A DNA stretch of 57,669 bases from the NCBI GenBank assembly GCA_902778375.1, contig CACYXJ010000021.1, positions 1 through 57,669 of the forward strand, in the 5' to 3' direction. The notes under the pieces are model-generated. The model was not told the origin of the DNA. It searched no databases and saw nothing but the letters and a program-made list of their open reading frames with translations. How positions within the stretch are numbered: position 1 is the first letter of the stretch; each line of letters starts with the position of its first letter. Both the position numbers and the translations under genes were made by a program. This document shows positions 15,118 to 57,669 of this stretch, one piece after another. The DNA comes from an uncultured Erysipelotrichaceae bacterium. GTDB lineage: Bacteria > Bacillota_I > Bacilli_A > Erysipelotrichales > Erysipelotrichaceae.

Positions 15118-15632
15118 AAGTGGCTGTTACTGAAGATGGTGAAGCGGCTGATAAAACACAGTATTCACTGAATGAGGACAAGATTGCGGAAGAGAAAATG
15201 TATGACGGCTATTATGCTGTATGTACCAATCTTGTGGATGACAGTGTCAAAGACATTCTTTCCGTCAGTGAAAGAAGATGGGAGATCGAAGAATCATTCC
15301 GCATTCTCAAGACTGACTTCAAATCCAGACCGGTATATCTGTCCAGAGAAGACCGCATAAAAGCGCACTTCCTTGTATGTTATCTCTCACTTCTGATCTA
15401 TCGTCTGCTTGAAAAGAAGCTGAACTATAAATACACATGTTCACAGATCATTACAACATTAAGATCAATGAAGCTGCTGGCTGTGGAAGGAATCGGATAT
15501 CAGCCTGCTTATAAGCGGACAGAAATTACGGATGATCTTCACAATGCGTTTGGCTTCCGGACTGATTATCAGATCATGAAAAAATCTTCCGTCCGCTCTG
15601 TCATCAGGCAGACAAAAGAGAGATCTCAATAA
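15118..15632 (+). pseudogene. IS1634/IS4-type transposase, C-terminal fragment
   Basis: The last ~170 residues of a DDE transposase: YDGYYAVCTNL, then SERRWEIEESFRILKTDF with the catalytic glutamate, then KAHFLVCYLSLLIYRLLE, typical of IS1634-like enzymes. The N-terminal half with the first two catalytic aspartates is missing. The fragment abuts the truncated lipoprotein on its left. The other flank of the lac cluster (24.0-24.6 kb) carries a fragment of a different member of this broad family. Confidence 0.85.
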
Positions 15633-22955: not shown

Positions 22956-23714
22956 ATGAAAAAAGAAGAACGTCAGAATCATATCCGGAATATGCTGAAC
23001 AGCACGGGAACCGTAACAGTAAATGAGATTATGCAGGAATTATCCGTATCGGACATGACTGTAAGAAGAGATCTGAGTGAAATGGCGCAGCGAGGTCTGC
23101 TCATCCGCACCCATGGCGGCGCCCAGAGAATCTATTCAGATGAAAGCGGTCTTGAACGCTCCCACCTGGAAAAAAAGCGTCTTCAGGAAGCAGAAAAAAA
23201 CGATATCGCCAATCTGACCGCAGCGCAGGTTTCAGACGGCGAAACCATTTTTATCGGACCGGGCACAACGCTCGAGCTCACCGCTTCAAATCTGAAGAAC
23301 CGGAATATGCGGATCGTCACAAACAGTCTGCCGGTCTTTGACATCCTGAGCCGCAGTTCTTCCGTCGACCTGCTTCTTGTCGGAGGAGAATACCGCCCCA
23401 TTACCGGCGCATTCGTCGGTACGGTATCCCTTCAATCCATCCGCAGCATGCGTTTCTCCAAAGCATTCATCAGCGTCAACGGCATCGTCGGCAGCAGTGT
23501 ATATACATACAGTGAAGCGGAAGGAGAGGTCCAGAAAGCGGTACTGGATCATGCGGATGAAAAATATCTGGTTGCGGATTCCAGCAAATTCGGCCGCTAT
23601 GACTTCTTTGAATTCTATAAAGTCAGCGATTTTGATCACGTGATCACAGACACCGCAATCTCAGAAGAAACGCTGCGGCAGCTGCGTGAGGTGACTGACG
23701 TCATCATTGCTTAA
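22956..23714 (+). CDS. lacR: Lactose operon repressor, DeoR family
   Basis: A 252-residue transcriptional repressor. The N-terminal DeoR helix-turn-helix is clear (TVTVNEIMQELSVSDMTVRR, RTHGGA), followed by a sugar-phosphate-sensing domain (FIGPGTTLELTASNL, TNSLPVFDIL). In lactic acid bacteria LacR releases DNA on binding tagatose 6-phosphate, an intermediate of the pathway encoded here. ATG 22956 follows GGATGGA; an upstream in-frame TTG at 22941 overlaps this site. It is divergent from the XRE gene and lac operon, with TGTTYGA repeats over its own promoter. Confidence 0.9.
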   Translation: MKKEERQNHIRNMLNSTGTVTVNEIMQELSVSDMTVRRDLSEMAQRGLLIRTHGGAQRIYSDESGLERSHLEKKRLQEAEKNDIANLTAAQVSDGETIFIGPGTTLELTASNLKNRNMRIVTNSLPVFDILSRSSSVDLLLVGGEYRPITGAFVGTVSLQSIRSMRFSKAFISVNGIVGSSVYTYSEAEGEVQKAVLDHADEKYLVADSSKFGRYDFFEFYKVSDFDHVITDTAISEETLRQLREVTDVIIA

Positions 23715-23752
23715 AATACCAAAGAATATTCATGAACAGGAGGAACAACTCT

Positions 23753-24000
23753 ATGCCAGATATTCTTTTGACAAGAATCGACAACCGGCTCGTCCACGGG
23801 CAGGTCGGAGTTGCGTGGACAAGCTCACTTGCCGGCTGCAACCCGATCCCCTGTTTGCAGGTCTGATGACGACCGTGCTTGCCTATACAACCGGTCAGGA
23901 TGTCAATGCCGCCATGGGTCTCACGATTCCGTTCGCCCTGATCGGTCAGTGGATCCACATTGTCGCAAACACTGGGATTGCCCGCATGGTGGCCTTGATT
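23753..24000 (+). pseudogene. Mannose-family PTS remnant: EIIB start joined to an EIIC piece
   Basis: From ATG 23753, after CAGGAGGAAC, the frame reads MPDILLTRIDNRLVHGQVGV, which is the N-terminus of a galactosamine/mannose-type PTS EIIB with its phosphohistidine in RLVHGQV. It stops at 23864-23866 after 37 codons. In another frame the following DNA encodes DPLFAGLMTTVLAYTTGQDV and IPFALIGQWIHIVANT, matching an internal EIIC segment. A deletion has joined the two genes. The good ribosome site suggests that a complete PTS operon once followed lacR. Confidence 0.75.
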
Positions 24001-24029
24001 AATTTTGACGATTCGGACAACAACATTTT

Positions 24030-24603
24030 TCGAGCTGTCAATCAGTTCACAGTTGAGTACACGAATAATGGGCAAATCGTTACCGCTGCCGAAAGAACGG
24101 ACGCTACAAGCAGAGAAACAGAGTTGTGCGGATACTTCATTATCATCATGTCAAAGAAAATGATAGCGAAGGAAGCACTGTTACTATACAAGAGCAGAGA
24201 CGCATCAGAGAAACTTTTCAGAGGAGACAAATCATATCTTGGAAATAAGGTATTGCGAGTATATTCCAGTGAATCAGCGGAATCGAAGATCTTTATAAAG
24301 TTCGTGGTACTAATCATCAGGAACCGGATATACCGGAATATGAAAGAATACATGCTTGAGAACGATGTCAGGAGAAATTATCTTGATGTGCCGGAAGCGC
24401 TGAGGGAACTGGAGAAGATCGAGATGATACGATACAGTGACCGTGTATACCGGCTAAGCCATGCGGTTACGTCAACACAGAAAACGATATTGAGGGCGTT
24501 TGGACTGGATGAATAATACATCAAGACAAAAGCAAGAATATTAAGTATACAGTTAGAGAGCCTAGAGAAGAAAGATGGCAAAAAGAACGATTACGATCGA
24601 TGA
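24030..24603 (+). pseudogene. IS1634-type transposase, C-terminal fragment with a nonsense codon
   Basis: The frame encodes KSRDASEKLFRGDKSYLGN, then SAESKIFIKFVVLIIRNRIY and the tail PEALRELEKIEMIRYSDRVY, all typical for the C-terminal third of this transposase family. TAA at 24514-24516 interrupts the tail, but the frame continues after it (YIKTKARILSIQLESLEKK) to a second stop at 24603, consistent with the natural end of the protein. The N-terminal two thirds are absent; the sequence is fused to the PTS remnant. Confidence 0.8.
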
Positions 24604-24787
24604 AAAGATCGAAAAAACGCAGAAAGAAGTGATCAGAGCCAAAGAGAAATATGAAGCCACAATCAACGAACTGAAAGAGCTGGAGGAGAGAAAGAAAAAG
24701 ATCCAGAGTAAAGAATTGAGGCAGCCTTCCGGGAAAGCAGCCGCAGCTACGATAAGATTCATGACATTTCTGAAATCAGAAGAATAA
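24575..24787 (+). CDS. Small coiled-coil protein associated with the IS remnant
   Basis: A 70-residue charged protein starting MAKRTITIDEKIEKTQKEV and rich in Glu/Lys heptads up to residue 50. Proteins of this look are frequent next to IS transposases in clostridia and relatives; their role is unknown. It overlaps the end of the transposase remnant, and a hairpin follows it. A weak AAGAAAG site precedes the ATG. It may no longer be functional. Confidence 0.5.
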   Translation: MAKRTITIDEKIEKTQKEVIRAKEKYEATINELKELEERKKKIQSKELRQPSGKAAAATIRFMTFLKSEE

Positions 24788-24789
24788 AA

Positions 24790-24834
24790 AAGGACAGATA
24801 TCACCTGTAAATAACTTGGTGAAAAGCTGTCCTT
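24790..24834. terminator. Hairpin after the IS remnant
   Basis: AAGGACAG and CTGTCCTT pair across a 29-base interior that holds a second short CACC/GGTG pair. The A-run before and the weak T-content after allow termination in either direction. Confidence 0.5.
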
Positions 24835-24929
24835 CAGTGTTTTAGTGGGTAAAATTCAGGAAGTAAAGGGTAATGGTACTTGTAGAATAGCACTTCTGAA
24901 AGGTTTTCAAAAAATATACTCTGAACATA

Positions 24930-24957
24930 TTGGTGCAACAGACATTCAGAGTATAAT
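24930..24957 (+). promoter_or_regulatory. Promoter of the AAA ATPase/TOPRIM pair
   Basis: TTGGTG (24930-24935) and TATAAT (24952-24957) are separated by 16 bases, about 43 bases before the ATG. An AAAAGGAG ribosome site follows. It probably belonged to a transposase gene, because the first ~70 codons behind it look transposase-derived. Confidence 0.55.
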
Positions 24958-25000
24958 AATATTTATAGGATTGGTGTATTTGCATTAAAAGGAGATTATT

Positions 25001-26326
25001 ATGTATGTAGGTCAATATGAACCTGTCAGAATTCCAAATAGTGGTAAACTCCACATTCAGAAAAATGGGTATGTATACTGGTCTAATGCCTCCAAGTGGG
25101 ATAATGAAAAAAAGCGAAGTATTGATAACCGAGTCTCTATTGGTAAGGTTATTCCAGATCAACCTGGCATGATGTATCCCAACAAAAAATATTTTGATAT
25201 CTTTGGAATAGATTCAAATAATGAAGAAAAGAAGGGCACGAGAATGGATAATATGCTCAGTAATCTGAGAATTGAAAACTTCAGAGGTATTCAGGAGCTG
25301 AGTATCAAAGATATGCGTCGGCTTGTCTTGCTGTCTGGAAATAATAACGTTGGGAAGAGTTCTGTACTGGAAGCCATTTTCTTTATGATGGATCATCTAT
25401 CCCCAGATTCTTTCAATCATATGAATGGCTTCCGCGGATTAAATATTCCAACAAACGGAGTCAGTCTGTGGGAGCCCCTTTTCTACCAAATGAATCCTGA
25501 CAATACAATCAAGATTCAAGCGACGCGAGGCGAAGATGTTCTTACATTGTCATATTCCAAGGATGATAGCTATATTCCTGCTCTAAATGGGGGAATTCCC
25601 AAAAATGTGGCAGGGAGTTTTCAATCTTCTGCAAAAAGGAATTATACTCTACGGTTTGATTTCAAGGTTGAGGGATCGGTTGATTATTCCGAGGCTGGGC
25701 ATTATACCACAAGTGAAAACGGTACGCTTCGAGAGGTAGCGGATGATAACGGTGATAAGCAGTTCATGCAACTCACCTACACGTCATTTGTAAACAACAA
25801 TTTTACCCGGACTGACAGAGCCATTCTTGATCGTATGGGAAAAGCGGAAATCAATGGTGAAAAGAAAAAATTAATCGGTTTTCTACAGCGCATTGATCCT
25901 TCCATCAGTGATATTGTCACCCTATCAATAAATGGTATCCCACAACTTTATATTAACACCAACAAGAAACTTCTTCCGGTTCAGTTCTCTGGGGATGGAA
26001 TTAACAAACTATTGTACATTATTTTAAGTATTATGGATGCCAAGAATGGAATCTTACTTGTCGATGAGATAGACACGGGATTCCACTACTCTATGTACAA
26101 AGATTTGTGGAAGATGGTATCTGATGTCAGTCGCGACTATAATTGCCAAGTTATTGCCACGACACACAGCTATGAAAACATTATTGGTGCAGTCGAAGGC
26201 GTTAAGGAGTATTCAGAAGATTTCTCCTATTACCGACTTGGCTATGACAAGGAAGGGCTTAAATCTTTCCGTTACAGTTATGATCTTCTAAAGAGCGCAT
26301 TTCGTTCTGACATGGAGGTTCGGTAA
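25001..26326 (+). CDS. OLD/PARIS-like AAA ATPase with a transposase-like N-terminal extension
   Basis: Predicted ATPase of a two-gene anti-phage module. Residues ~82-441 form an AAA15/AAA21-type ABC-like ATPase: LRIENFRGI at the start, Walker A GNNNVGKSS, signature-like SGDGINKLL, Walker B ILLVDEIDTG and the switch histidine in IATTHSYENI. Residues 1-70 (NGYVYWSNASKWDNEKKR, then VSIGKV and YPNKKYFDIFG) look instead like the N-terminus of an IS transposase, joined in frame. The strong ribosome site before ATG 25001 favours translation of the whole fusion; an internal start at 25244 with AAGGG upstream would give the ATPase alone. The stop overlaps the next start (TAATG), so the two products are translationally coupled. 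Confidence 0.8.
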   Translation: MYVGQYEPVRIPNSGKLHIQKNGYVYWSNASKWDNEKKRSIDNRVSIGKVIPDQPGMMYPNKKYFDIFGIDSNNEEKKGTRMDNMLSNLRIENFRGIQELSIKDMRRLVLLSGNNNVGKSSVLEAIFFMMDHLSPDSFNHMNGFRGLNIPTNGVSLWEPLFYQMNPDNTIKIQATRGEDVLTLSYSKDDSYIPALNGGIPKNVAGSFQSSAKRNYTLRFDFKVEGSVDYSEAGHYTTSENGTLREVADDNGDKQFMQLTYTSFVNNNFTRTDRAILDRMGKAEINGEKKKLIGFLQRIDPSISDIVTLSINGIPQLYINTNKKLLPVQFSGDGINKLLYIILSIMDAKNGILLVDEIDTGFHYSMYKDLWKMVSDVSRDYNCQVIATTHSYENIIGAVEGVKEYSEDFSYYRLGYDKEGLKSFRYSYDLLKSAFRSDMEVR

Positions 26327-26985
26327 TGCCTATTGAACGGAAACAGATTGTCAAACCATATCTATTGCTATGTGAAGGTAGAGATGCAGAAGGATTCCTG
26401 ATAAATTATCTGAATAGTAATGAATTAGCATATGATCAAAGGCTTTCAAACGAGATTCAAGTCTTGGATTTTGGTGGCAACGATGATTTAAGAAGTTTTC
26501 TCATGAATCTTAGGAATATGGACAAGTTCGACCAAGTCACAAGTTTGGCCGTCATCCGGGATGCCGAAAAAGATTATTCTAAAGCTTGTCGAGAGGTAAG
26601 CAGTTCATTAAAGAGATGCGGTTTTAAATCTTCAGAATGCAGTGGCTCCTGGATCCGAGATGACACGGGATTGAACGTTGGTTTCATTTTGTTTCCTCTT
26701 AACAACAAAGCTGGGACATTGGAAGATCTTTGCCTTCAAATTCTTTCCGAGAAGAATAACAAAACAATCCTGTCGTCAGTAGACAAGTTTTTGGTTGAGA
26801 TGGAATCATCTTATGGACGTCGCTATCGCAGAAAACATAAGAATAATCTGTACACGTATTTTTCTTCTAGCGATAAATATGTCACTATGCCACTTGGCCA
26901 AGCATCAAGTGCTGGAGCATTTCATTGGAGCAGCTACGAGTTGGAACCGCTTAAGAACTTTTTGTGTGAGGGATTTAACACCTAA
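26326..26985 (+). CDS. DUF3226/TOPRIM-like effector partner of the ATPase
   Basis: A 219-residue protein resembling DUF3226 and related TOPRIM-like OLD nucleases. The conserved glutamate appears in LLCEGRDAEGF near residue 15 and a D-x-E/D-like acidic motif in AVIRDAEKD near residue 80, followed by LFPLNNKAGTLEDL. In PARIS and OLD-type systems an ATPase of the kind encoded upstream holds such a nuclease-like protein until a phage trigger is sensed; the same role is inferred here. A one-base overlap couples it to the ATPase gene. A long hairpin (27114-27173) lies downstream. Confidence 0.75.
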   Translation: MPIERKQIVKPYLLLCEGRDAEGFLINYLNSNELAYDQRLSNEIQVLDFGGNDDLRSFLMNLRNMDKFDQVTSLAVIRDAEKDYSKACREVSSSLKRCGFKSSECSGSWIRDDTGLNVGFILFPLNNKAGTLEDLCLQILSEKNNKTILSSVDKFLVEMESSYGRRYRRKHKNNLYTYFSSSDKYVTMPLGQASSAGAFHWSSYELEPLKNFLCEGFNT

Positions 26986-27299: not shown

Positions 27300-27523
27300 T
27301 TTTGTTTGTCCCCAGGTTTTCTCCCCAAATTTTATCCCAAGTTAGATTGAACCTTCCCCAAGATTATTTGGTAACCCCACTTTTTTACCTCTTGTATTTA
27401 TGACGTTGTAGAGTATTAATTCATATTATTGAATCTTCCTGGAAGAGTGTTATCTTGCACATGGTTGTTAATCAATGGGCTTATTATTCTTCAGTTATGA
27501 TTAATCATTTGTGACAACAGCAA

Positions 27524-48117: not shown

Positions 48118-51100
48118 TCAGCGGTGAATCAGCCGTTTCCGCAATGCGATGAACATTACCAGCAATGACGCAGTCATAACTGCCAGCCAGTGCAGTGCCG
48201 GCAGAGCACCTCTGTCGGAGGTATCCGGCACCTTGCTGTCAGGTTTTGTATCATCTTTCTTCGGTTCGGTGATCGTGAAGTGTGCTGTGTCGCTGCTGCC
48301 GTCATCGAAGAGAGCAGTCAGGACATGTTCTCCAACCGACAGTGTATTCAGATACTGCGGATGCAGTCTGATGATGACGCTGCCCGCTTCCGCCGTATAG
48401 TTGGATGCTGCCACGTCATTGCCGTCGACCCTGATGCCGATGAAGTGTGAGAATGTTGTCTCATCCTCGGTGTTGCGCTTGAAGCGGAAGACCATATCTC
48501 CGCTGCCGCGTGTCCATGTGCTGCCGTCACCGGCAGTGACACGGTAGTGGATTTCTTCCGGTTTCGGAATGCTTCTTGTTTCCGTTTCGCCGCAGCGCTG
48601 GCAGGTCCTCTGTTCCAGTCCCTCAGCTTCAGCTGACGGTTCCCTGACAACAATCCATTCACTCCAGTCATGCCCGAGTGCCGCAGTTTCTTCACGGCGC
48701 CTCAGAGTAATGAACGAAGGATCACTGAACTCTGCCGTGTATTCCGTTTCGCCCTTCTCTGTGCAGGTCGGCTCCGAAATGACTTTCGAAGCAGTCTGCA
48801 CGGTTTCAGTTACTTTCTCGGACGGATCATTCTGACATGTCTTTGTAGCTGTTACAGTACTGTTGTCATCAGCCCATTCATAGACCGGTGTTCCCCAGTC
48901 ATGACCCTTTGCCGGAATCTCTTCCGTATCGGTCTGGGTTTCAAAGGCTTCGTTCTTGAAGGCGGCTGTATAAGTCTTCTCGCCTGCTTCCGTGCAGGTC
49001 GGTTCCTTTGTTACTTCCGTCTTCACTGCTGCGGTTTCTTTTTCCGTATGTGACGGATCATTCTGACATGTTCTTTCAGCTGTTACCGTTGCCTTGTCAT
49101 CCGACCAAGTATAGGTCGGTTCACCCCAGTCATGGCCGAGCTTTGGAACACTGACAACGGTCCTGCTAACTACTTCGCCGCATTTTGTACAGCGGACAAC
49201 AATGTAGTAGTAGCCGACGTTCGTGCAGGTCGGAGCTGCTCCGTCTTCTCTCGAACTGTCGCCTTCATGACCGGTCGCTTTAATGATCAGGCTCTCATAC
49301 GTGACTTCCTGTGTACCTGCTTCATCCGCATAATATTTGTGGCACTTTTCGCATTCGTAGTGTTCCTTCAGACCGGTTTCGGTACAGGTAGCTGCAACTG
49401 CATCATAGTGCTTCATCAGATGTTCATGGCCCTTTGGCGGGATCGGACGCTCTTCTGTTTTTCCGCAGCGTCCGCATGTCCTTCTCTCCAGACCTTCTTC
49501 ATCTTCTGTTGCTTCCGTGATGACCTGCCATTTACTCCAGTCATGGCCCAGGGCTGCTTCGGTGTAATGGTCTCTTCGCAGTTCCTTGCCGCAGTGCTGG
49601 CAATAGAACACTTCATCGTAGCTGCCTTCTTCTGTACAGGTTGCTTCCTTGATAATTTCCTTTACAGCATTTCCGGGCAGATGGCCTGTTGCCGGAATGA
49701 CTTCCGTACGGGTATGACTGCTGTCATTCTGACATGTATATGCCATGATGCCGTCTTCCTCGCAGGTTGCCGGTTTCGTCACAGTGCCTTCGTCCCAGTA
49801 ATGGCCGGTCGCATCGATATCTTCCACTGTCTTTGTCTGGACTTTGAATCCGGAGCCGGTGAAGACAGCGGTGTAAGTTGTTTCGCCTTTCTCTTCGCAT
49901 TTCGGTTTTCTGGTGACTTCGGCGATGGTTGTCACAGTTTCTTTTTCTTCATGCGAAGGATCATTCTTGCAGATCCTCTTCGCCGTAACTGTCTGGTTGT
50001 CATAACTCCATTCATAAACCGGCTCATCCCAGTCATGACCTGTTTCATCGATCAGGACTGTCTTTGTCTGGGTCTTGAAGGAAGAATCGCTGAATACTGC
50101 TGTGTATTCAATCTCTCCCTTATCGGTACAGGTCGGTTTCTTTGTTTCTTTCGACGTTGTCTTCACTGTCTCGCTGACTGTCTCAGAAGGATCGTTCAGA
50201 CATGTCTTTGTCGCTGTTACCGTACTGTTGTCAGAAGACCACCTGTATTCCGGTGTACCCCAGTCATGGCCTTTCGCCGGAATCTCTTCCGTAACCGTCT
50301 GCGGTTCGAAGTGTTCATCCGTGAATGTTGCCGTGTACGTCATTTCACCGGGTCTGGTGCAGGTTGGTTCTATTGTTACTGAGGAGGTGGCTGCCACCGT
50401 CTCGCTCAGCACATGACTCTCGTCGTTACGGCAGATTGCTTCTGCTGTTACCGTACTCCTGTCATCTGACCATGTATAGGTCGGTTCGCCCCAGTCATGG
50501 CCTTTCTTCGGGATACTGACGATGGTCCGGCTGATCACTTCTTTGCACTTTTCACAGTAGACAACCATGTCGTAATGGCCGACGGTCGTGCAGGTCGCAT
50601 CGACTCTGTTTTCTGTTTTGTGTGCGTACTGATGCGATGCTGTCGGTATGATCAGATCTTCATAGCTGACTTCGTAGATACCTTCTTCATCTGAATAGTA
50701 TCTGTGACACTTGCTGCATTCGTAGTGTTCCTTCAGACCTGTCGTCGTACAGGTTGCCGGTTTTTCGTCAACGTGCGTCATCTCATGCACATGGTCGAGA
50801 TGCGGGATCGCCCGTTCTTCTGCTTCATCGCAGCGTGTGCATTCCCTTCTCTCCAGACCGTCTTTATCTTCTGTTGCTTCTTCGATGACTTTCCACTCGC
50901 CCCAGTTATGGCCGAGGGCTGGTTCGGTGTGGTGATCTCTTGCCAGTTCCTGATGACAGATCTCGCAGTAGATCACTTCGTCATAGCCGCCCGGTGTTGT
51001 GCAGGTTGCTGCTTCGAAATCCTCCATCACCGCTTCTGCCGGACTGTGTCCTGTTGCTTCGATGACTTCTTCTTTTGTATGGCTGCTGTCGTTCCGGCAT

Positions 51101-54100
51101 GTGTATGTCATGACGCCGGCTTCTTCACAGGTAGCTTGTTTCGTTACAGTTCCTTCATCCCAGTTGTGGCCGAGTGCATTGATGTCTTTCAGGCTCTTCG
51201 TCTGGGTTTCGAACGCTTCATTTTCGAATTCAGCTGTATACGTCGTCGTACCCTTTTCCGTGCACGTCGGTTTTACAGAGATTTCCTGTACGGTGACGAC
51301 TGTTTCTTCCACTGCATGACCGCATCTGTCACAGGTCATCCGCGCCGTGACGGTGCTGTTGTCAGCGGACCAGCTGTATACCGGAGCGCTGTAATCATGA
51401 CCCAGCGGTTCGACATCACTCAGCGTCTTCTTCTGCGGCTTGAATGATGTGTCAGTGAATTCTGCTGTATATGTCGTTTCACCCGCTTCCGTACATGTCG
51501 GCAGTGTCGTTACAGACGAGGTTGTCTGTACAGTTTCACTGACCACATGATCCGGATCGTTCTTACAGGTCTTTGTCGCTGTTACGGTGCTGTTGTCGAA
51601 AGACCATTCATAGACCGGTGTATCCCAGTCATGGCCTGTCGCCGGAATGACTTCCGTCTTTGTCTGTGCTTCAAATGCACTGTTTGTGAATGTGACTGTA
51701 TATGTTCTCTCGCCTGCTTCCGTACAGGTCGGTTCCTTCGTCACTTCACTCTTCACAGCCGCTGTTTCGCTTTCCACATGTGACGGATCATTCTTACATG
51801 TTCTTTCGGCTGTGGCTGTACTGTTGTCGGCTGCCCATGTATATGACACCTTGCCCCAGTCATGGCCTTTCTTCGGAATGCCGACCACGGTCCGGCTTAC
51901 TACTTCATGGCATCTTTCACACTCAATGACGATGTAGTAATGACCGAAATTCGTGCAGGTCGCCTCGACTCTGTCTTCTTCGTGCCTTGTCACATCGTGA
52001 CCCAGCGCGTTGATGAGGAGGCTCTCATATGTGACTTCCTGTGTGCCTGCTTCATCCGCATAGTATTTGTGGCACTTTTCGCATTCGTAGTGTTCCTTCA
52101 GACCGGTTTCGGTACAGGTTGCAGCCACTGTGTCATAGTGCTTCATCTGATGTTCATGGTCTTTGTGCGGAATCGGCCGCTCTTCTGTTTCAGAGCAGCG
52201 CCTGCATGTCCTTCTCTCCAGACCTTCTTCATCTTCTGTCGCTTCCTTGATGACTTTCCATTCAGTCCAGTCATGGCCCAGGGCTGCTTCAGTGTAATGG
52301 TCTCTTCGCAGTTCCTTGCCGCAGTGCTGGCAGTAGAACACTTCATCATAGCTGCCTTCCGTTGTGCAGGTCGGCTTGACTTCGTTTTCTCTTACGGATT
52401 TTTCAGACGGCAGATGGCCTGTCTTCGGCAGTACTTCCGTGCGGGTATGGCTGCTGTCATTCTGACATGTATATGTCATGACGCCGTCTTCCTCGCAGGT
52501 TGCCGGTTTCGTCACAGTGCCTTCGTCCCAGTCATGACCGAGTGCGTCGATATTGGCGATTGTCTTTGTCTGCACTGTGAAGGCGGAGCTGCCGAACGCA
52601 GCCGTGTATGTTGTCTCACCCTTCTCCGTACAGGTCGCCGGTTTCGTCACTTGCGCACTTGTCGTTACTGTCTCGCTTTCGATATGCGAGGAATCGTTCT
52701 GACAGATCCGCTTCGCTGTCACACTGCTGTTGTCATAGTTCCATTCATAGACAGGCTCGCCCCAGTCATGTCCGGATGCCGGAATCACTTCCTTCATCGT
52801 CTGGGCACTGAATGCCGGATTGGCAAACACTGCTGTAAAGATCCGTTCACCGTCTTCTTCACATGTTGCAGGGCTTTCCGTCATGACAGTATCAACTGTT
52901 TCTGTTTCGTTGTGGGAAGAATCATTTTTACAGACTCTTTCCGCTGTCACCTTGCTGTTGTCGTCCGCCCATGTATAGGATGGTTCACCCCAGTCATGGC
53001 CGGTCGCCGGAACGGTTTCCGTCTTTGTCTGCGGTTCAAAGGCAGAGTTTCTGAAGATGGCAGTGTAGGTCCGGCTGCCATCTTCTGTGCAGGTCGGCGC
53101 CGTTTCTTCATGCATCACGGTTTCAACGGTTTCCGTCTGCTTATGGGAAGGATCGTTCTTACAGATCCTTTCGGCGGTTACCTTGCTGTTGTCAGCGGAC
53201 CAGGTATATGTCGCCTCACCCCAGTTATGGCCGGTCTTTGGCACATCCTTGACAGTGATTGTCTGAATCTTGAACGCCGGATTGGTGAACGGAGCGCTGA
53301 TATAAGTCGTTTCACCGTCTTCTTCACAGGTTGCCGGTTTGGTAACCTCAGAGGAAGTAATGATTGCCTGTTCCCTTTCCACACATTCCGGTGTTGTCTG
53401 ATGATTGCAGATTCTTTGCGCGACCAGATATGTCTTGTTAGAGGAAAGGTGGTAAACAGTTTCGCGCCAGTCATGACCGATTGCCGGTGTTATTTCGATA
53501 AATATACGGCTGATTTCTTCGTAGCACTCTTTACAGTAGACAACTTTGTCGAAGCCGCCTGCCTCCGTACAGGTCGCAGTTCTTTCATTTTCTTTCTTTG
53601 CCTTATCCGGGTCATGTACGACCGGTGTGGATGCCGTAATATGCACCTTTTCACCCCAGTAACTATAGTTCAGTAGTGTGGCGCCATTGATTTTGATCTG
53701 CAGATCTTCCACCTTATCCGGATAGACAACACCCGGCTCCGGCTCGAGACGGATTTCGATATAAGCTGTCTGCCCGCCGATCAGAGTATAATCCGGACGG
53801 GAATGATCCGTCTCTGATTCGATAAAGTATATACCGTCGTCAATACTGTAGGAACTCTGGTCGATGTAACCGCGCGGCTGCATCTGTCCCGCTTCCGTAC
53901 CGCACCATACAGTGAACAGATCGATATCGATCTTTGTCTGGATCTTGATCATTGCATAGTAGATATCTCTGTCATTGCTGAGAACTTCTTCCATGTCGAT
54001 CTGAGCAGCGATTGCTTCATCCATAGTTTTGTAGTCACTCAGCGGCTGCGGCAGGAACAGTCCGAAGACCGTCTTGCCTGTGGCAGGTTTATATCCATCT

Positions 54101-57100
54101 TTCTTGAAACGATAGGTGATTTTGTCTTCATTCGGTCCGATGACATTCAGCAGCTTGGTACCTTCATCTGCCTTAAGAACCAGCGGTTCGACCAGATCGA
54201 TTCCGTCTCTGGAAGACCAGTGAATCGTCAGATTCTTGATCGGATCATTCTTCCACAGGGCTGTAAACACAGTATCCTTGTCAATTCTGACAACCTGACC
54301 GGCAAAATAGCCTTCAGGCCCTATGCCCCAGCAGTCAAATGTTTTTCCCTGCGGTGCTGTAAATGTATTCTGCGGCAGGATGTAATAGCTTTCCTTGCAT
54401 ACTCTGACTGTATAAGTCTCGCCGCTGCCGGTGCCTGGATCGAAAGTTACGATCGCTGCCGGGCCGAAGACACCTTCCCCTTCCTGGCTGTAGCCGGTCG
54501 CAAGTTCGTTGTCACTGACAAAATTCTCAATGACACCTTTGCCGGGCAGACCGCTCGTAAAGATGCCGTTCTTCATGCCGTAAACACCGATCCTGGCATC
54601 TTTGTCCAGCATACCCGCTACAGTGATGATACCGTTGCGCAGTTCGACATTGCATGTCTTGCCGCCGGCAATGTTATCGGTAATGACCGGATTGCCGGAA
54701 ACCTTGAATGTACCGCGGCTGACGCTGATATTGCCATGGCTGTCTGCCGTGTTGTTTGTGATCGTGCCGCCGCGGATATCCACAGTCGTATTCAGATCGA
54801 CCATCGAAACGCCGCAGATATGTGCTTTGTTATTCTCAATGGCACCGCCTTCCATGATGAAGGTGCCGTTGGCTACCGGATGCACGCCACCGCTGAAATA
54901 GGAATAGTTGCCGGTGATCGTGCCGCCCTTGAGAATGAATGTACCGCCGTTTACCGTAACGGAACCGGCTGTGTATGGATTGGCACTGTCGTTATTGGCA
55001 CCGGTCAGAGTTCCGCCGCCGGCAGAATCGGTAACGGTCAGGGTGCCCTGAATGTTCATGATGGCACCGCCGTCAGTGAGCTTGTTCTGCAGATTGCGGT
55101 CGATTGAATGACCGTTCAGATCAATGGTGATATTTTTGCCGGCCGGAATCACCAGCGCAGAGTCAGTCGGCATTGCCCTGACATCATCGCTCAGAACGAT
55201 TACATCACCGTCTTTGGCGTTGTTGATCTTTTCCTGCAGATCCTGCCACGGGCTGCCCCACAAGGCAGTCAGGGTAGTGTCTTTTTCCGGTGTGATCTTG
55301 TCGCCTGGAGCAACAAGCTGCTTCGGATCGTCATCGACCATCCAGCCGGCAAACTTTGTGTCTTCCAGAGTGAATGTGCATTCCGGAACGGTATATTCCA
55401 TACCTGCAGCTGTAACGACAGGCTTCATTGTACCTGCGGCTAAAGGATCGCCTTTTTCGAAGTCGATGGTTACGCCGACAGCCAGCTGTGCTTCATAGTC
55501 TTCTGTCTCGATGATTACATAGGCAGGATCGTCACTGTACAGATGCGCGCTTGAGAAATTGCCGCTCATTCTCTTCATGACGGTAACCGGCTGACCGTAC
55601 TGCGGTGCGATTTCCGAAGTGATGCCGACATATGCCCTGACACCGAGGGTGTTGACCATACGGTCATACTTCGGTTCGCCGTCCTCGGCATTGATATACA
55701 GGTTGTTGGCTTTGTTGGCAACTGTATTGCCGTTGATATGGGCATCCCCGGTAACGATGAAATCGCCGTCGCCATATACACCGCCGCCGCTGACTGCAGC
55801 CGAGTTGCCGTAGACGGTACCGCCGAACATCAGGTAACTGTGCAGGGTGCCATGGATAGTCGAATCGATATAAACACCGCCGCCGCTCTTACCGGCAGTA
55901 TTGTTTTCGATATAAGTGCTTGTGTACTGGTCGAAACGGCCGACGTCGTAGATACCGCCACCGTTGCCGTCAGCATGGTTGTAGCTGATAAAGCCGCCCC
56001 TCATGGTCAGTCTGCCGTAGTTGACGATACCGCCGCCATCACCGGTCGTGTTGCCGCCGGTGATGATGCCTTTCAATGAGGCACCGTTGTTTACGATGGT
56101 CAGATTGCCGTTGTTCACTAAGACTGAACCATTGTCCACCGGTACTTCCAGATTGCGGTTGATCATACAGCCGTTCAGGTCGATGGTAATATGCTGATCC
56201 TTACCGATGACAAGCGGTACATCATACGGCGAAGCAATAACATCCTCATCGAGAACGATGGTTACTGATGTCTCTCCTGCCAAATCGATTTTTTCCTGCA
56301 GTTCCTTCCACGGACTGGTCCAGAGGGCTGTGATTTCCATATCGCCTGTGAGCTGGATCTGCTTCTTCGGCTGATAAACTTCCGTGCCGATCTGCCAGCC
56401 CTTGAAGCGATAGCCTTTCAGCGGTTCCCATGGGCATTCCGGCAGTGTCAGCCAGCTGTTCTGGGCATAGTCCGTACTTTCGGTAACATGCTGCTCAGCC
56501 TTGTCGCCGCTGTTGACGGTAACAGTGACTTTCGTCTTGCCAAAGACAAGTTCACCATTCGTGTCATAACCTTTGTAATAATTATTGTCCGAATAGATCA
56601 CATCGAAATTGCCATTCTTCGGCAGGCCGCCGGTGACGGTCACCGGTTCATCGACTTTTTCCACCCACGGATGTGTCAGATAGATCACAGCATCATCGCT
56701 GAGCGGACCGTCAATATTCATGACACCGCTGGCTGATACGTATACATTTGCATCAATGCCGTCTTTGCCCTTGTTGTCTTTGATAATTGGACTGCCTGAG
56801 AAATACGTGCCGGAGGATGATACGACGATACCGCCGCCGAGGTTGTCACAGATATTATTAATGATCTTTCCGCCCTGGATCTTCGTGTTGCCGTTGATTG
56901 CGTCAATACCGCCGCCGATCCGGCTGGCATGGTTGTTCTCAACTGTGCCGCCGGTCATGGTCAGGGTTCCGCGGTTGTTGATGATACCGGCACCGCGTGA
57001 TGCTGTATTACCGCTGATCGTACCGCTTTCGAATATCACTTCACCATACTCGATGTGGATACCGCCACCTACTTCCGAAACTACTGTCGAACTGTTGTTG

Positions 57101-57669
57101 CCGCCGGTGATCAGACCGCCGCCGGCACTGTCTCTGATCGTCACTTTGCCTTCGACATATAAGACCATGCCGCCTGCGGCCGGTTCCTGCAGATTTCTGT
57201 CGATCGTCTGGCCGTTCAGATCAAGAATGATATTCTTGTCCTTCGGAATTCTCAGAGCAACATCGTCAGCTGCTGCTGTAATTGGCTGGCTGAGGGTAAT
57301 CGTTTCACCATCCTGGGCATGATCGATCTTCGACTGCAGTTCCTTCCATGGTGACTCGTCCCAGGACGCGACGAAAACAGCACTCTGATCGAGCGTGAGT
57401 TTCTCTCCCGGTTTTACGATATTGTCAGGATTGCCATCAACATACCAGCCGGCAAAGGCGCCGCCGTACAGATCATATCCGCATGCCGGCACAGTAAATT
57501 CAATGCCCTTGCCGATGACCCGGTCCGCCATCTCGCCGGTCGCATCTTCATGTCCCGGTTGGAATTTCAGGGTAAGCGGGAGCACCAGCATGACTTCCCC
57601 ATCCAGTTCCTGGAAGACACCGTACGCCGGATCATCACTGATATAGTTGGCACTTGTACTTCTGCCTTT
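48118..57669 (-). CDS. Giant repetitive surface protein, 5' end outside the window
   Basis: At least 3,183 residues; the frame is open to the window edge, so the signal peptide is not seen. The N-terminal third alternates right-handed beta-helix stretches (GGGIVNYGRLTMRGGFISYN, GTLTMTGGTVENNHAS) with InlB/Listeria-Bacteroides-type repeats (GYRFKGWQIG ... LTALW). The central and C-terminal two thirds consist of ~60-75-residue repeats such as ATCTEKGETTYTA ... GHDWGEPTYTWSDDNSTVTA, and CxxC-bearing variants (HYECEKCHKYYADEAGTQ). The C-terminus has KVPDTSDRG, a hydrophobic helix (LHWLAVMTASLLVMFIALRK) and a basic tail, like a cell-wall sorting signal with a degenerate motif. Probable adhesin or surface layer filament. 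It is followed by a strong terminator. Confidence 0.88.
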   Translation of the reverse strand, partial: KGRSTSANYISDDPAYGVFQELDGEVMLVLPLTLKFQPGHEDATGEMADRVIGKGIEFTVPACGYDLYGGAFAGWYVDGNPDNIVKPGEKLTLDQSAVFVASWDESPWKELQSKIDHAQDGETITLSQPITAAADDVALRIPKDKNIILDLNGQTIDRNLQEPAAGGMVLYVEGKVTIRDSAGGGLITGGNNSSTVVSEVGGGIHIEYGEVIFESGTISGNTASRGAGIINNRGTLTMTGGTVENNHASRIGGGIDAINGNTKIQGGKIINNICDNLGGGIVVSSSGTYFSGSPIIKDNKGKDGIDANVYVSASGVMNIDGPLSDDAVIYLTHPWVEKVDEPVTVTGGLPKNGNFDVIYSDNNYYKGYDTNGELVFGKTKVTVTVNSGDKAEQHVTESTDYAQNSWLTLPECPWEPLKGYRFKGWQIGTEVYQPKKQIQLTGDMEITALWTSPWKELQEKIDLAGETSVTIVLDEDVIASPYDVPLVIGKDQHITIDLNGCMINRNLEVPVDNGSVLVNNGNLTIVNNGASLKGIITGGNTTGDGGGIVNYGRLTMRGGFISYNHADGNGGGIYDVGRFDQYTSTYIENNTAGKSGGGVYIDSTIHGTLHSYLMFGGTVYGNSAAVSGGGVYGDGDFIVTGDAHINGNTVANKANNLYINAEDGEPKYDRMVNTLGVRAYVGITSEIAPQYGQPVTVMKRMSGNFSSAHLYSDDPAYVIIETEDYEAQLAVGVTIDFEKGDPLAAGTMKPVVTAAGMEYTVPECTFTLEDTKFAGWMVDDDPKQLVAPGDKITPEKDTTLTALWGSPWQDLQEKINNAKDGDVIVLSDDVRAMPTDSALVIPAGKNITIDLNGHSIDRNLQNKLTDGGAIMNIQGTLTVTDSAGGGTLTGANNDSANPYTAGSVTVNGGTFILKGGTITGNYSYFSGGVHPVANGTFIMEGGAIENNKAHICGVSMVDLNTTVDIRGGTITNNTADSHGNISVSRGTFKVSGNPVITDNIAGGKTCNVELRNGIITVAGMLDKDARIGVYGMKNGIFTSGLPGKGVIENFVSDNELATGYSQEGEGVFGPAAIVTFDPGTGSGETYTVRVCKESYYILPQNTFTAPQGKTFDCWGIGPEGYFAGQVVRIDKDTVFTALWKNDPIKNLTIHWSSRDGIDLVEPLVLKADEGTKLLNVIGPNEDKITYRFKKDGYKPATGKTVFGLFLPQPLSDYKTMDEAIAAQIDMEEVLSNDRDIYYAMIKIQTKIDIDLFTVWCGTEAGQMQPRGYIDQSSYSIDDGIYFIESETDHSRPDYTLIGGQTAYIEIRLEPEPGVVYPDKVEDLQIKINGATLLNYSYWGEKVHITASTPVVHDPDKAKKENERTATCTEAGGFDKVVYCKECYEEISRIFIEITPAIGHDWRETVYHLSSNKTYLVAQRICNHQTTPECVEREQAIITSSEVTKPATCEEDGETTYISAPFTNPAFKIQTITVKDVPKTGHNWGEATYTWSADNSKVTAERICKNDPSHKQTETVETVMHEETAPTCTEDGSRTYTAIFRNSAFEPQTKTETVPATGHDWGEPSYTWADDNSKVTAERVCKNDSSHNETETVDTVMTESPATCEEDGERIFTAVFANPAFSAQTMKEVIPASGHDWGEPVYEWNYDNSSVTAKRICQNDSSHIESETVTTSAQVTKPATCTEKGETTYTAAFGSSAFTVQTKTIANIDALGHDWDEGTVTKPATCEEDGVMTYTCQNDSSHTRTEVLPKTGHLPSEKSVRENEVKPTCTTEGSYDEVFYCQHCGKELRRDHYTEAALGHDWTEWKVIKEATEDEEGLERRTCRRCSETEERPIPHKDHEHQMKHYDTVAATCTETGLKEHYECEKCHKYYADEAGTQEVTYESLLINALGHDVTRHEEDRVEATCTNFGHYYIVIECERCHEVVSRTVVGIPKKGHDWGKVSYTWAADNSTATAERTCKNDPSHVESETAAVKSEVTKEPTCTEAGERTYTVTFTNSAFEAQTKTEVIPATGHDWDTPVYEWSFDNSTVTATKTCKNDPDHVVSETVQTTSSVTTLPTCTEAGETTYTAEFTDTSFKPQKKTLSDVEPLGHDYSAPVYSWSADNSTVTARMTCDRCGHAVEETVVTVQEISVKPTCTEKGTTTYTAEFENEAFETQTKSLKDINALGHNWDEGTVTKQATCEEAGVMTYTCRNDSSHTKEEVIEATGHSPAEAVMEDFEAATCTTPGGYDEVIYCEICHQELARDHHTEPALGHNWGEWKVIEEATEDKDGLERRECTRCDEAEERAIPHLDHVHEMTHVDEKPATCTTTGLKEHYECSKCHRYYSDEEGIYEVSYEDLIIPTASHQYAHKTENRVDATCTTVGHYDMVVYCEKCKEVISRTIVSIPKKGHDWGEPTYTWSDDRSTVTAEAICRNDESHVLSETVAATSSVTIEPTCTRPGEMTYTATFTDEHFEPQTVTEEIPAKGHDWGTPEYRWSSDNSTVTATKTCLNDPSETVSETVKTTSKETKKPTCTDKGEIEYTAVFSDSSFKTQTKTVLIDETGHDWDEPVYEWSYDNQTVTAKRICKNDPSHEEKETVTTIAEVTRKPKCEEKGETTYTAVFTGSGFKVQTKTVEDIDATGHYWDEGTVTKPATCEEDGIMAYTCQNDSSHTRTEVIPATGHLPGNAVKEIIKEATCTEEGSYDEVFYCQHCGKELRRDHYTEAALGHDWSKWQVITEATEDEEGLERRTCGRCGKTEERPIPPKGHEHLMKHYDAVAATCTETGLKEHYECEKCHKYYADEAGTQEVTYESLIIKATGHEGDSSREDGAAPTCTNVGYYYIVVRCTKCGEVVSRTVVSVPKLGHDWGEPTYTWSDDKATVTAERTCQNDPSHTEKETAAVKTEVTKEPTCTEAGEKTYTAAFKNEAFETQTDTEEIPAKGHDWGTPVYEWADDNSTVTATKTCQNDPSEKVTETVQTASKVISEPTCTEKGETEYTAEFSDPSFITLRRREETAALGHDWSEWIVVREPSAEAEGLEQRTCQRCGETETRSIPKPEEIHYRVTAGDGSTWTRGSGDMVFRFKRNTEDETTFSHFIGIRVDGNDVAASNYTAEAGSVIIRLHPQYLNTLSVGEHVLTALFDDGSSDTAHFTITEPKKDDTKPDSKVPDTSDRGALPALHWLAVMTASLLVMFIALRKRLIHR
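49131..53225 (-). repeat. Three super-repeats of exactly 1365 bases (455 codons)
   Basis: Within the giant protein gene the units 49131-50495, 50496-51860 and 51861-53225 have the same order of sub-repeats. Landmarks such as the CATGG after CCCCAGT (49131, 50496, 51861) and the CGTAGTGTTCCTTCAG block (49356, 50721, 52086) are spaced by exactly 1365 bases. The first and third units are closer to each other than to the middle one. Confidence 0.85.

Follow-up and report, generated by a model that had tools for sequence, protein, structure and literature searches.

In a contig of an uncultured Erysipelotrichaceae bacterium (CACYXJ010000021.1, positions 1 to 57,669; hereafter the window, i.e., the whole stretch of DNA that was analysed), the ATPase gene of a two-gene locus begins with an in-frame domain homologous to the N-terminus of IS1634-family transposases, and its promoter carries an inverted repeat whose half-sites recur, with the same consensus, at the promoter of the closest transposase found. 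The locus comprises an ABC-type ATPase and a coupled gene for a DUF3226 protein (Table 1). With a probability of roughly 0.5, we read it as a defence pair of the PDC-M38 type that captured a transposase DNA-binding domain, perhaps together with its operator, and would use it for autoregulation. New here, at the level of sequence, are the promoter inverted repeat common to eight close loci and the matching half-sites at that transposase (L028; L and G numbers designate loci and genomes). How ATPase/Toprim defence pairs are switched, i.e., kept quiet and turned on, is largely open; as the ATPase carries a transposase part with a candidate cognate site, regulation and sensing would therefore be testable within a single protein and on a short, defined operator. 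If this is right, a prokaryotic host gene would have co-opted the DNA-binding domain of a transposase, much as in the domesticated transposases of eukaryotes. In that case DUF3226 would also become more accessible to study, as would the N-terminal domain of the IS1634 transposases, a family called poorly characterised in a passage of PMC4549789. In the open-licence literature, outside which most subscription papers lie, we found no paper on a captured or derived transposase in defence and none on DUF3226, and with broader terms no such fusion was reported by title among the matches listed.

The N-terminal domain and its inheritance

Residues 1-82 of the fused protein matched no Pfam or PADLOC family (NCBIfam best E 0.11) and aligned with the first ~80 residues of long frames elsewhere, with E values down to 2.4e-9. 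A domain search of 60 genomes (own genome included) gave matches in 9, i.e., in 8 others, and outside the window 12 of the 15 matches sit in frames of 515-585 aa; the domain profile, run against 392 genomes of the phylum, matched in 8, own included. When six domain-bearing frames were compared with NCBIfam, the full-length L028, L017, L020, L011, and L014 were IS1634 transposases above the cut-off, and the short frame L042 had no match. L028 (164.9 bits, cut-off 100) is identical to the window protein at 36 of 68 residues (50% over 78 aa, E 5e-21), L077, the nearest kin found of L028, at 34 of 68, and 13 other aligned transposases are 29-38% identical in the domain. The N-terminal ~70 residues are what the pair has in common with these transposases; it differs from them in lacking the catalytic domain, the fused protein having no match to the IS1634 model (NF033559) at E 1, and no terminal inverted repeats were found around the pair. 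The domain is basic (pI 9.6), 47 of its 68 residues are invariant among seven aligned homologues, and against the PDB sequences it gave one chance-level match. On this comparison, residues 1-70 are homologous to the IS1634 transposase N-terminal domain, in agreement with the original prediction, made from the DNA alone, that the first ~70 residues are related to an IS transposase.

A query with the ATPase part alone retrieved seven relatives from the GTDB contigs (78-88% identity; the scan reaches close relatives only), the closest (88%) in an Erysipelotrichaceae metagenome-assembled genome. Their titles name Erysipelotrichaceae, Lachnospiraceae, Clostridiales, and two planctomycetes (binning as titled); the DNA of the two planctomycete-titled loci, L003 and L006, is 98.9% identical, and L006 was left out of the substitution ratios, trees, and background counts and kept in the counts out of eight. 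The same N-terminus stands in frame in all seven, with a homologue of the partner gene next in each, and with the window the front, a variable linker, and the coupled partner are found in 8/8 close loci. The distant L027, with an ATPase 43% identical, has the same N-terminus, linker, and coupled partner. Unfused homologues were found as well: L062 (ATPase 46% identical, with the partner next to it) and L063 (41%) among 397 genomes of the family of G437, and two more distant ones among 398 genomes of its phylum.

When 13 ATPases were placed in an unrooted tree, the eight fused ones grouped together (support 89/83; recovered in 85% of 200 bootstrap trees), and the unfused L062, L063, L064, L065, and L050 fall outside it; long branches were flagged by the program. 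In a tree of the domain, L028 and L077 are the transposases that fall into one supported set with the N-termini of the ATPases (95/93). Since support in the ATPase tree is moderate and the order inside the domain-tree set is unresolved, a single old capture is the simplest reading and not a proven one. The N-terminal domain is, by its substitution pattern, under purifying selection: the ratio of non-synonymous to synonymous substitution rates (dN/dS) is 0.042 for residues 1-68, 0.656 for the linker, and 0.048 for the ATPase, as means from which 9 to 10 of the 21 pairs were excluded for saturation at silent sites; with every pair included, the corresponding ratio of uncorrected proportions (pN/pS) is 0.10, 0.60, and 0.14. 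Open frames were used as found, with a stop near the 3' end in L063 and stop-interrupted frames under translation table 11 in L029, L031, and L034.

A recent local IS insertion that gave the ATPase gene its start, promoter, and ribosome site would suit the IS1634 remnant lying just upstream. This reading is extremely improbable, and we rejected local capture because the same N-terminus occurs in 7/7 relatives found with the ATPase part alone; purifying selection also speaks against it, as does the remnant itself, which comes from the C-terminus of another element. Of the junction that had been predicted to supply a promoter and a ribosome site, the promoter-like sequence and AAAGGAG are present, while an IS/ATPase junction is absent from this genome. 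The original prediction had named homologues sharing these 70 residues without any IS relationship as evidence against itself; homologues do share the N-terminus (7/7), yet the IS relationship stands. One option it had raised, that the extra domain does something in its own right, is supported.

The promoter repeat and the half-sites at the transposase promoter

All eight close loci carry the inverted repeat ATTAyACTcTG-N23-CAGAGTATAAT upstream of the ATPase gene. Its spacer is exactly 23 nt in each, the repeat-to-ATG distance differs by up to 8 bases among the loci, and 9 or 10 of the 11 arm positions are complementary in 8/8. In the aligned upstream sequences, the -35 box lies inside the spacer and the -10 box inside the right arm. 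Shuffles gave p values from 0.0004 to 0.037 in the seven non-identical loci. As a pattern, TAYACTMTG-N20-26-CAKAGTATAAT was searched for; it occurs once in the host genome (2.4 Mb, a draft of 112 contigs) and in 6 of the 12 genomes searched, which are six of the eight close hosts, and nowhere in them except at the promoter of the pair; the reversed pattern, used as control, gave 0 matches. The single site of G439 reads on both strands, and the pair's hosts G434 and G440 were missed because one arm differs. From its position and conservation, the repeat is a candidate operator of the pair.

The promoter of L028 contains CATAGTATA-N15-TATACTATG, ending 10 bases before the transposase ATG, and the half-site consensus CAKAGTATA is common to it and the pair promoters. 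CATAGTATA is identical to one arm in L002, L004, and L007, the window version being CAGAGTATA. Allowing at most one mismatch in each half, half-sites in both directions are present in the eight close pair promoters and in L028, in 0/13 other IS1634 promoters (some of them near-copies), and in neither of the two unfused genes' promoters. The exact half-site pair appeared in 0/3000 shuffles of the L028 promoter, and the converging dyad has one site in G317, at the L028 promoter, and none in 11 other genomes.

Several observations weigh against a cognate domain and operator. The repeat of L002 is weak by shuffles (p 0.037), and when repeats were searched for freely, the best one was equalled by 32, 9, and 3 of 60 shuffles in L004, L008, and L003, respectively, and by 23/60 in L027. 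The DNA of the eight loci is conserved upstream to about -95, so that they share ancestry up to there and are not independent. As the half-site overlaps the -10 box, part of its match is generic promoter sequence, and the geometry differs, the arms diverging around the -35 in the pair and converging in L028. Two further IS1634 promoters, L016 and L010, show the half-site pair at two mismatches, and the distant fused L027 lacks it even at two. The pair is also absent from the promoter of L077, from which it follows that domain and site do not always travel together. The structure model of the fusion has a pLDDT of 46 overall, with strands predicted for the domain at low confidence.

Other repeats occur upstream of the transposases. 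Among 16 transposase promoters, the best repeat in the last 90 bases beat all 60 shuffles in six (L028, L011, L018, L013, L014, and L029, near-copies included), that of L028 being another, terminator-like repeat; in these comparisons, the L012 stretch starts at CCT, a few bases off the gene start. Upstream of L011, an inverted repeat GGTGGTATAAT-N12-ATTATACCACC overlaps the -10, and element-specific inverted repeats stand upstream of L011 and L018, and also of L013 and L014; such repeats perhaps serve transposase autoregulation. An alignment of the two ends of L028 gave just a 13-base match, and by eye CCTGGAATC is found on both sides of it.

Module type, proposed mechanism, and alternatives

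Profile searches place the ATPase among the OLD/PARIS/AbiL-like proteins, as originally predicted: Pfam AAA_15 matches at 5.2e-25, in two stretches, and PADLOC AbiLi at 6.5e-53 (178.5 bits), over its whole length (residues 85-441). Against the PDB, the ATPase matched 19 distinct sequences, mostly over short stretches (best 1.1e-4). The pair fits the candidate system PDC-M38 in both genes, which overlap by one base: the ATPase matches PDC-M38A (4.3e-46, 156.2 bits, residues 85-441) and the adjacent protein PDC-M38B (1.2e-10, 39.5 bits), in a PADLOC scan table that gives no cut-off for these models. The combination, first described as one that could not be named, thus has a name, with no sign of this N-terminal domain: the two best PDC-M38A profiles begin where the ATPase does, with query residues 85 and 82, a longer one (715 positions) has a different N-terminal part before the ATPase, and no transposase domain was seen in the PDC-M38A profiles examined. 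No mention of PDC-M38 was found in the literature among the matches listed.

Two better known systems are close. AbiL likewise has two genes, and PARIS has separate ABC ATPase and Toprim genes; the ATPase matches AriA models at 1.5e-26, models whose lengths (373 and 304) are near those of the general Pfam AAA_15 and AAA_21 (374 and 304). The pair was assigned to neither because, among the nine PADLOC models that its partner matched at E 1 or better (eight PDC-M38B and one PDC-M45C), none was of AbiLii or AriB; the pair also differs from both systems in its extra domain. OLD proteins of classes 1 and 2 have ATPase and Toprim in one chain, whereas two genes are found in all eight close loci. In the parts of the literature consulted, an AbiLii homologue of Fusobacterium is described as toxic in E. 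coli, its AbiLi showing no antitoxicity (PMC3985639), and in PARIS an ATPase assembly holds the Toprim effector until triggered, the effector AriB cleaving tRNA (PMC12409363).

The partner matches Pfam DUF3226 (2.5e-23) and is likely, though not proven, to be Toprim-like, judging from its residues and its model. E17, D79, E81, and E133 are kept in 9/9 sequences (seven aligned, plus L049 and L062 by eye), which agrees with the prediction of a coupled DUF3226/TOPRIM-like gene whose acidic residues are not lost. The structure model (pLDDT 65.3, medium quality) has the OLD Toprim 6nk8_B as its top match (Z 7.0, rmsd 3.7, 104 aligned) and PH0156 (2p62_A; Z 6.9, rmsd 4.1, 111 aligned) among its best. 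These matches are tied with unrelated Rossmann-like folds, e.g., succinyl-CoA synthetase, and, to our knowledge, no activity of DUF3226 is known; both points weigh against the mechanism proposed below. Foldseek returned 0 matches for the model at E 0.001, the sequence had none in the PDB, and its profile gave two chance-level ones.

In the mechanism that we propose, the module would be a defence-type unit of an OLD/AbiLi/AriA-like ABC ATPase and a DUF3226 Toprim-like effector, presumably a nuclease. In one clade, the ATPase would have acquired the IS1634-family N-terminal domain, most simply by one old fusion, and the half-site may have come along with it. The domain most likely binds DNA, recognising the inverted repeat of the module's own promoter, so that the ATPase, or assemblies of ATPase and effector, would repress their own operon; infection, by way of the ATPase, would free the Toprim effector and lift the repression. 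That one ATPase could both hold the effector and repress its own promoter is suggested by the precedents of PARIS and of AbiE, where, as described in part of PMC3985639, the Abi operon is repressed by AbiEi through promoter inverted repeats. The AbiE operon would thus work like the proposed pair; its proteins are different, and AbiEi binds by a winged helix.

A variant of this mechanism, unlikely in our view, would have the domesticated domain and its operator in a gene that gives two products, the long form, with repressor and ATPase, and a short ATPase-only form from the ATG of residue 82, so that the ratio of long to short form, together with operator binding, would tie infection sensing to effector expression. 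A Shine-Dalgarno (SD)-like site precedes this ATG in 5/8 non-identical loci and 8% of 86 internal ATGs further on, at an energy threshold of -5 or lower that was chosen after the fact; the amino-acid sequence of the linker, for its part, is free to vary. On the other side, L007 has -4.3 there and L003 and L027 are without such a site; Lys and Glu codons also make the linker rich in A and G, and the SD-like site may be left over from a former ATPase start.

Alternatively, the domain could serve protein-protein contact or sensing, by dimerising or by recognising a phage product, with the dyad bound by another regulator. The L077 and L027 promoters, which lack the half-site pair, are in its favour, and a front position on the ATPase would suit a sensor. 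We regard it as rather doubtful: the only matches of the pattern, in six genomes, are at the pair's own promoter, which speaks against a regulator of the host at large, and the closest transposase has half-sites of this consensus at its promoter. Quite unlikely is an anti-transposon or DNA-targeting role, in which the domain would guide the nuclease to the ends of IS1634-type transposons or to invading DNA bearing them. A transposase N-terminus is where end recognition would be expected, and an IS1634 C-terminal fragment lies directly upstream in 2/8 loci (the window and L002); however, no further dyad sites were found in the host genomes under the two patterns searched, and the separate effector is arranged as in PARIS, with its tRNA-cleaving AriB. 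Finally, a repair or housekeeping function of the ATPase/Toprim pair, in place of defence, is unlikely, given that the partner is patchy (E 1e-6 or better in 2/392 genomes of the phylum, own included) and that AbiE-like and VapBC-like genes and a phage-tail-like region are seen by eye near the partner in relatives.

Features and surroundings of the locus

The predicted positions and sizes of both frames (25001-26326, 441 aa; 26326-26985, 219 aa) proved correct, and the frames overlap by one base, in TAATG.

Table 1. Coordinates of the locus, its parts, and associated repeats (window positions unless a locus is named)
Feature	Position	Strand	Remarks
ATPase ORF (open reading frame)	25001-26326	+	441 aa, ATG start
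DUF3226 ORF	26326-26985	+	219 aa, coupled to ATPase ORF by TAATG
Promoter with 11-bp inverted repeat, candidate operator	24913-24957	+	Arms and spacer constant in close loci
Left arm AATATACTCTG	24913-24923	+	Candidate operator
-35 TTGGTG	24930-24935	+	Inside the 23-nt spacer between the arms
Right arm CAGAGTATAAT	24947-24957	+	Contains -10 TATAAT
-10 TATAAT	24952-24957	+	16 bases after -35; promoter-like sequence
Ribosome-binding site AAAGGAG	24987-24993	+	Duplex energy with anti-SD -8.9
IS1634-transposase-type N-terminal domain, residues 1-68	25001-25204	+	Homology to transposase L028
Variable linker, residues 69-83	25205-25249	+	dN/dS about 0.66
In-frame ATG in linker (residue 82)	25244	+	SD-like AGAAGGG before it, energy -5.4
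ABC-type ATPase, residues 84-441 and stop	25250-26326	+	GNNNVGKSS, FSGDGINKL, LLVDEIDTGFH, and TTHS, which we take to be its ATPase motifs
C-terminal remnant of another IS1634 transposase	24043-24570	+	Context only, unjoined to the pair
Flanking direct repeat copies	L003 3091-3169, 5369-5445; L006 125-203, 2403-2479

The upstream remnant covers positions 331-482 of NF033559 and is 38-57% identical to the C-termini of six IS1634-type transposases. The overlapping frame 23707-24516 is a composite of a sorbose-type PTS IIC fragment (residues 44-95) and an IS1634 transposase C-terminus, which would suit an IS that inserted here and decayed. A second C-terminal remnant (NF033559 positions 336-481) lies at 15120-15632, and the draft genome gave no full-length copy. 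When 408 bases or more upstream were compared per locus in the eight loci, an IS1634 C-terminal end was seen directly upstream of the pair, in the same direction, in L002 (2-199) and in the window (24043-24570).

The pair was also considered as cargo of an element with its own ends and rejected, as the DNA conserved between loci reaches no further than about -95 on one side and the end of the second gene on the other, the near-identical L003 and L006 excepted. From 400 bases upstream to 400 downstream, no clear flanking repeats were found in 6/8 loci: inverted repeats were equalled by 11 to 146 of 200 shuffles in all eight loci, and direct repeats by 15 to 174 of 200 in six. L003 and L006 have a 76-column direct repeat flanking the pair (63/76 identical, 82.9%; 0/200 shuffles), whose upstream copy in L003 is, by eye, the 3' part of a phage-like gene. 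Insertions of IS1634 and IS1549 make direct repeats of 8 to 514 bp, according to a passage in PMC2266710; the repeat may be such an IS-type duplication or may stem from the replacement or duplication of part of a gene. Among the 12 inverted repeats listed between 24000 and 28000, one brackets the whole pair (24766-24790 / 27481-27505, 72%).

Among 180 and 70 pattern matches in viral contigs, no relative was encoded. Phages gave two Acinetobacter records at 24%, and plasmids 149 records, all below 60% identity, with the best 20 of 149 at 28%; the DNA of promoter and N-terminus had no plasmid match.

Genes next to the pair in relatives include two AbiE-like ones in L006 (3225-4651), of which one is a weak AbiEi match (19.5 bits, cut-off 150) and the other had no match in NCBIfam, a VapBC-like pair in L005 (5971-6674, by eye), and a 953-aa primase-helicase-like protein in L002 (2621-5482; PrimPol_Msp 1.1e-20, below its cut-off). 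The transposase frames L029 and L034, from the 1.2 Mb genome G243, are fragmented under table 11; table 4, in which TGA codes for a residue, gives frames of 538 and 554 codons. Within the window, relaxase-like and resolvase-like frames at the start of a low-GC stretch (96-2162, by eye) suggest a mobile region, and a very long repetitive surface-type protein of 3157 aa is encoded at 48118-57591 (by eye).
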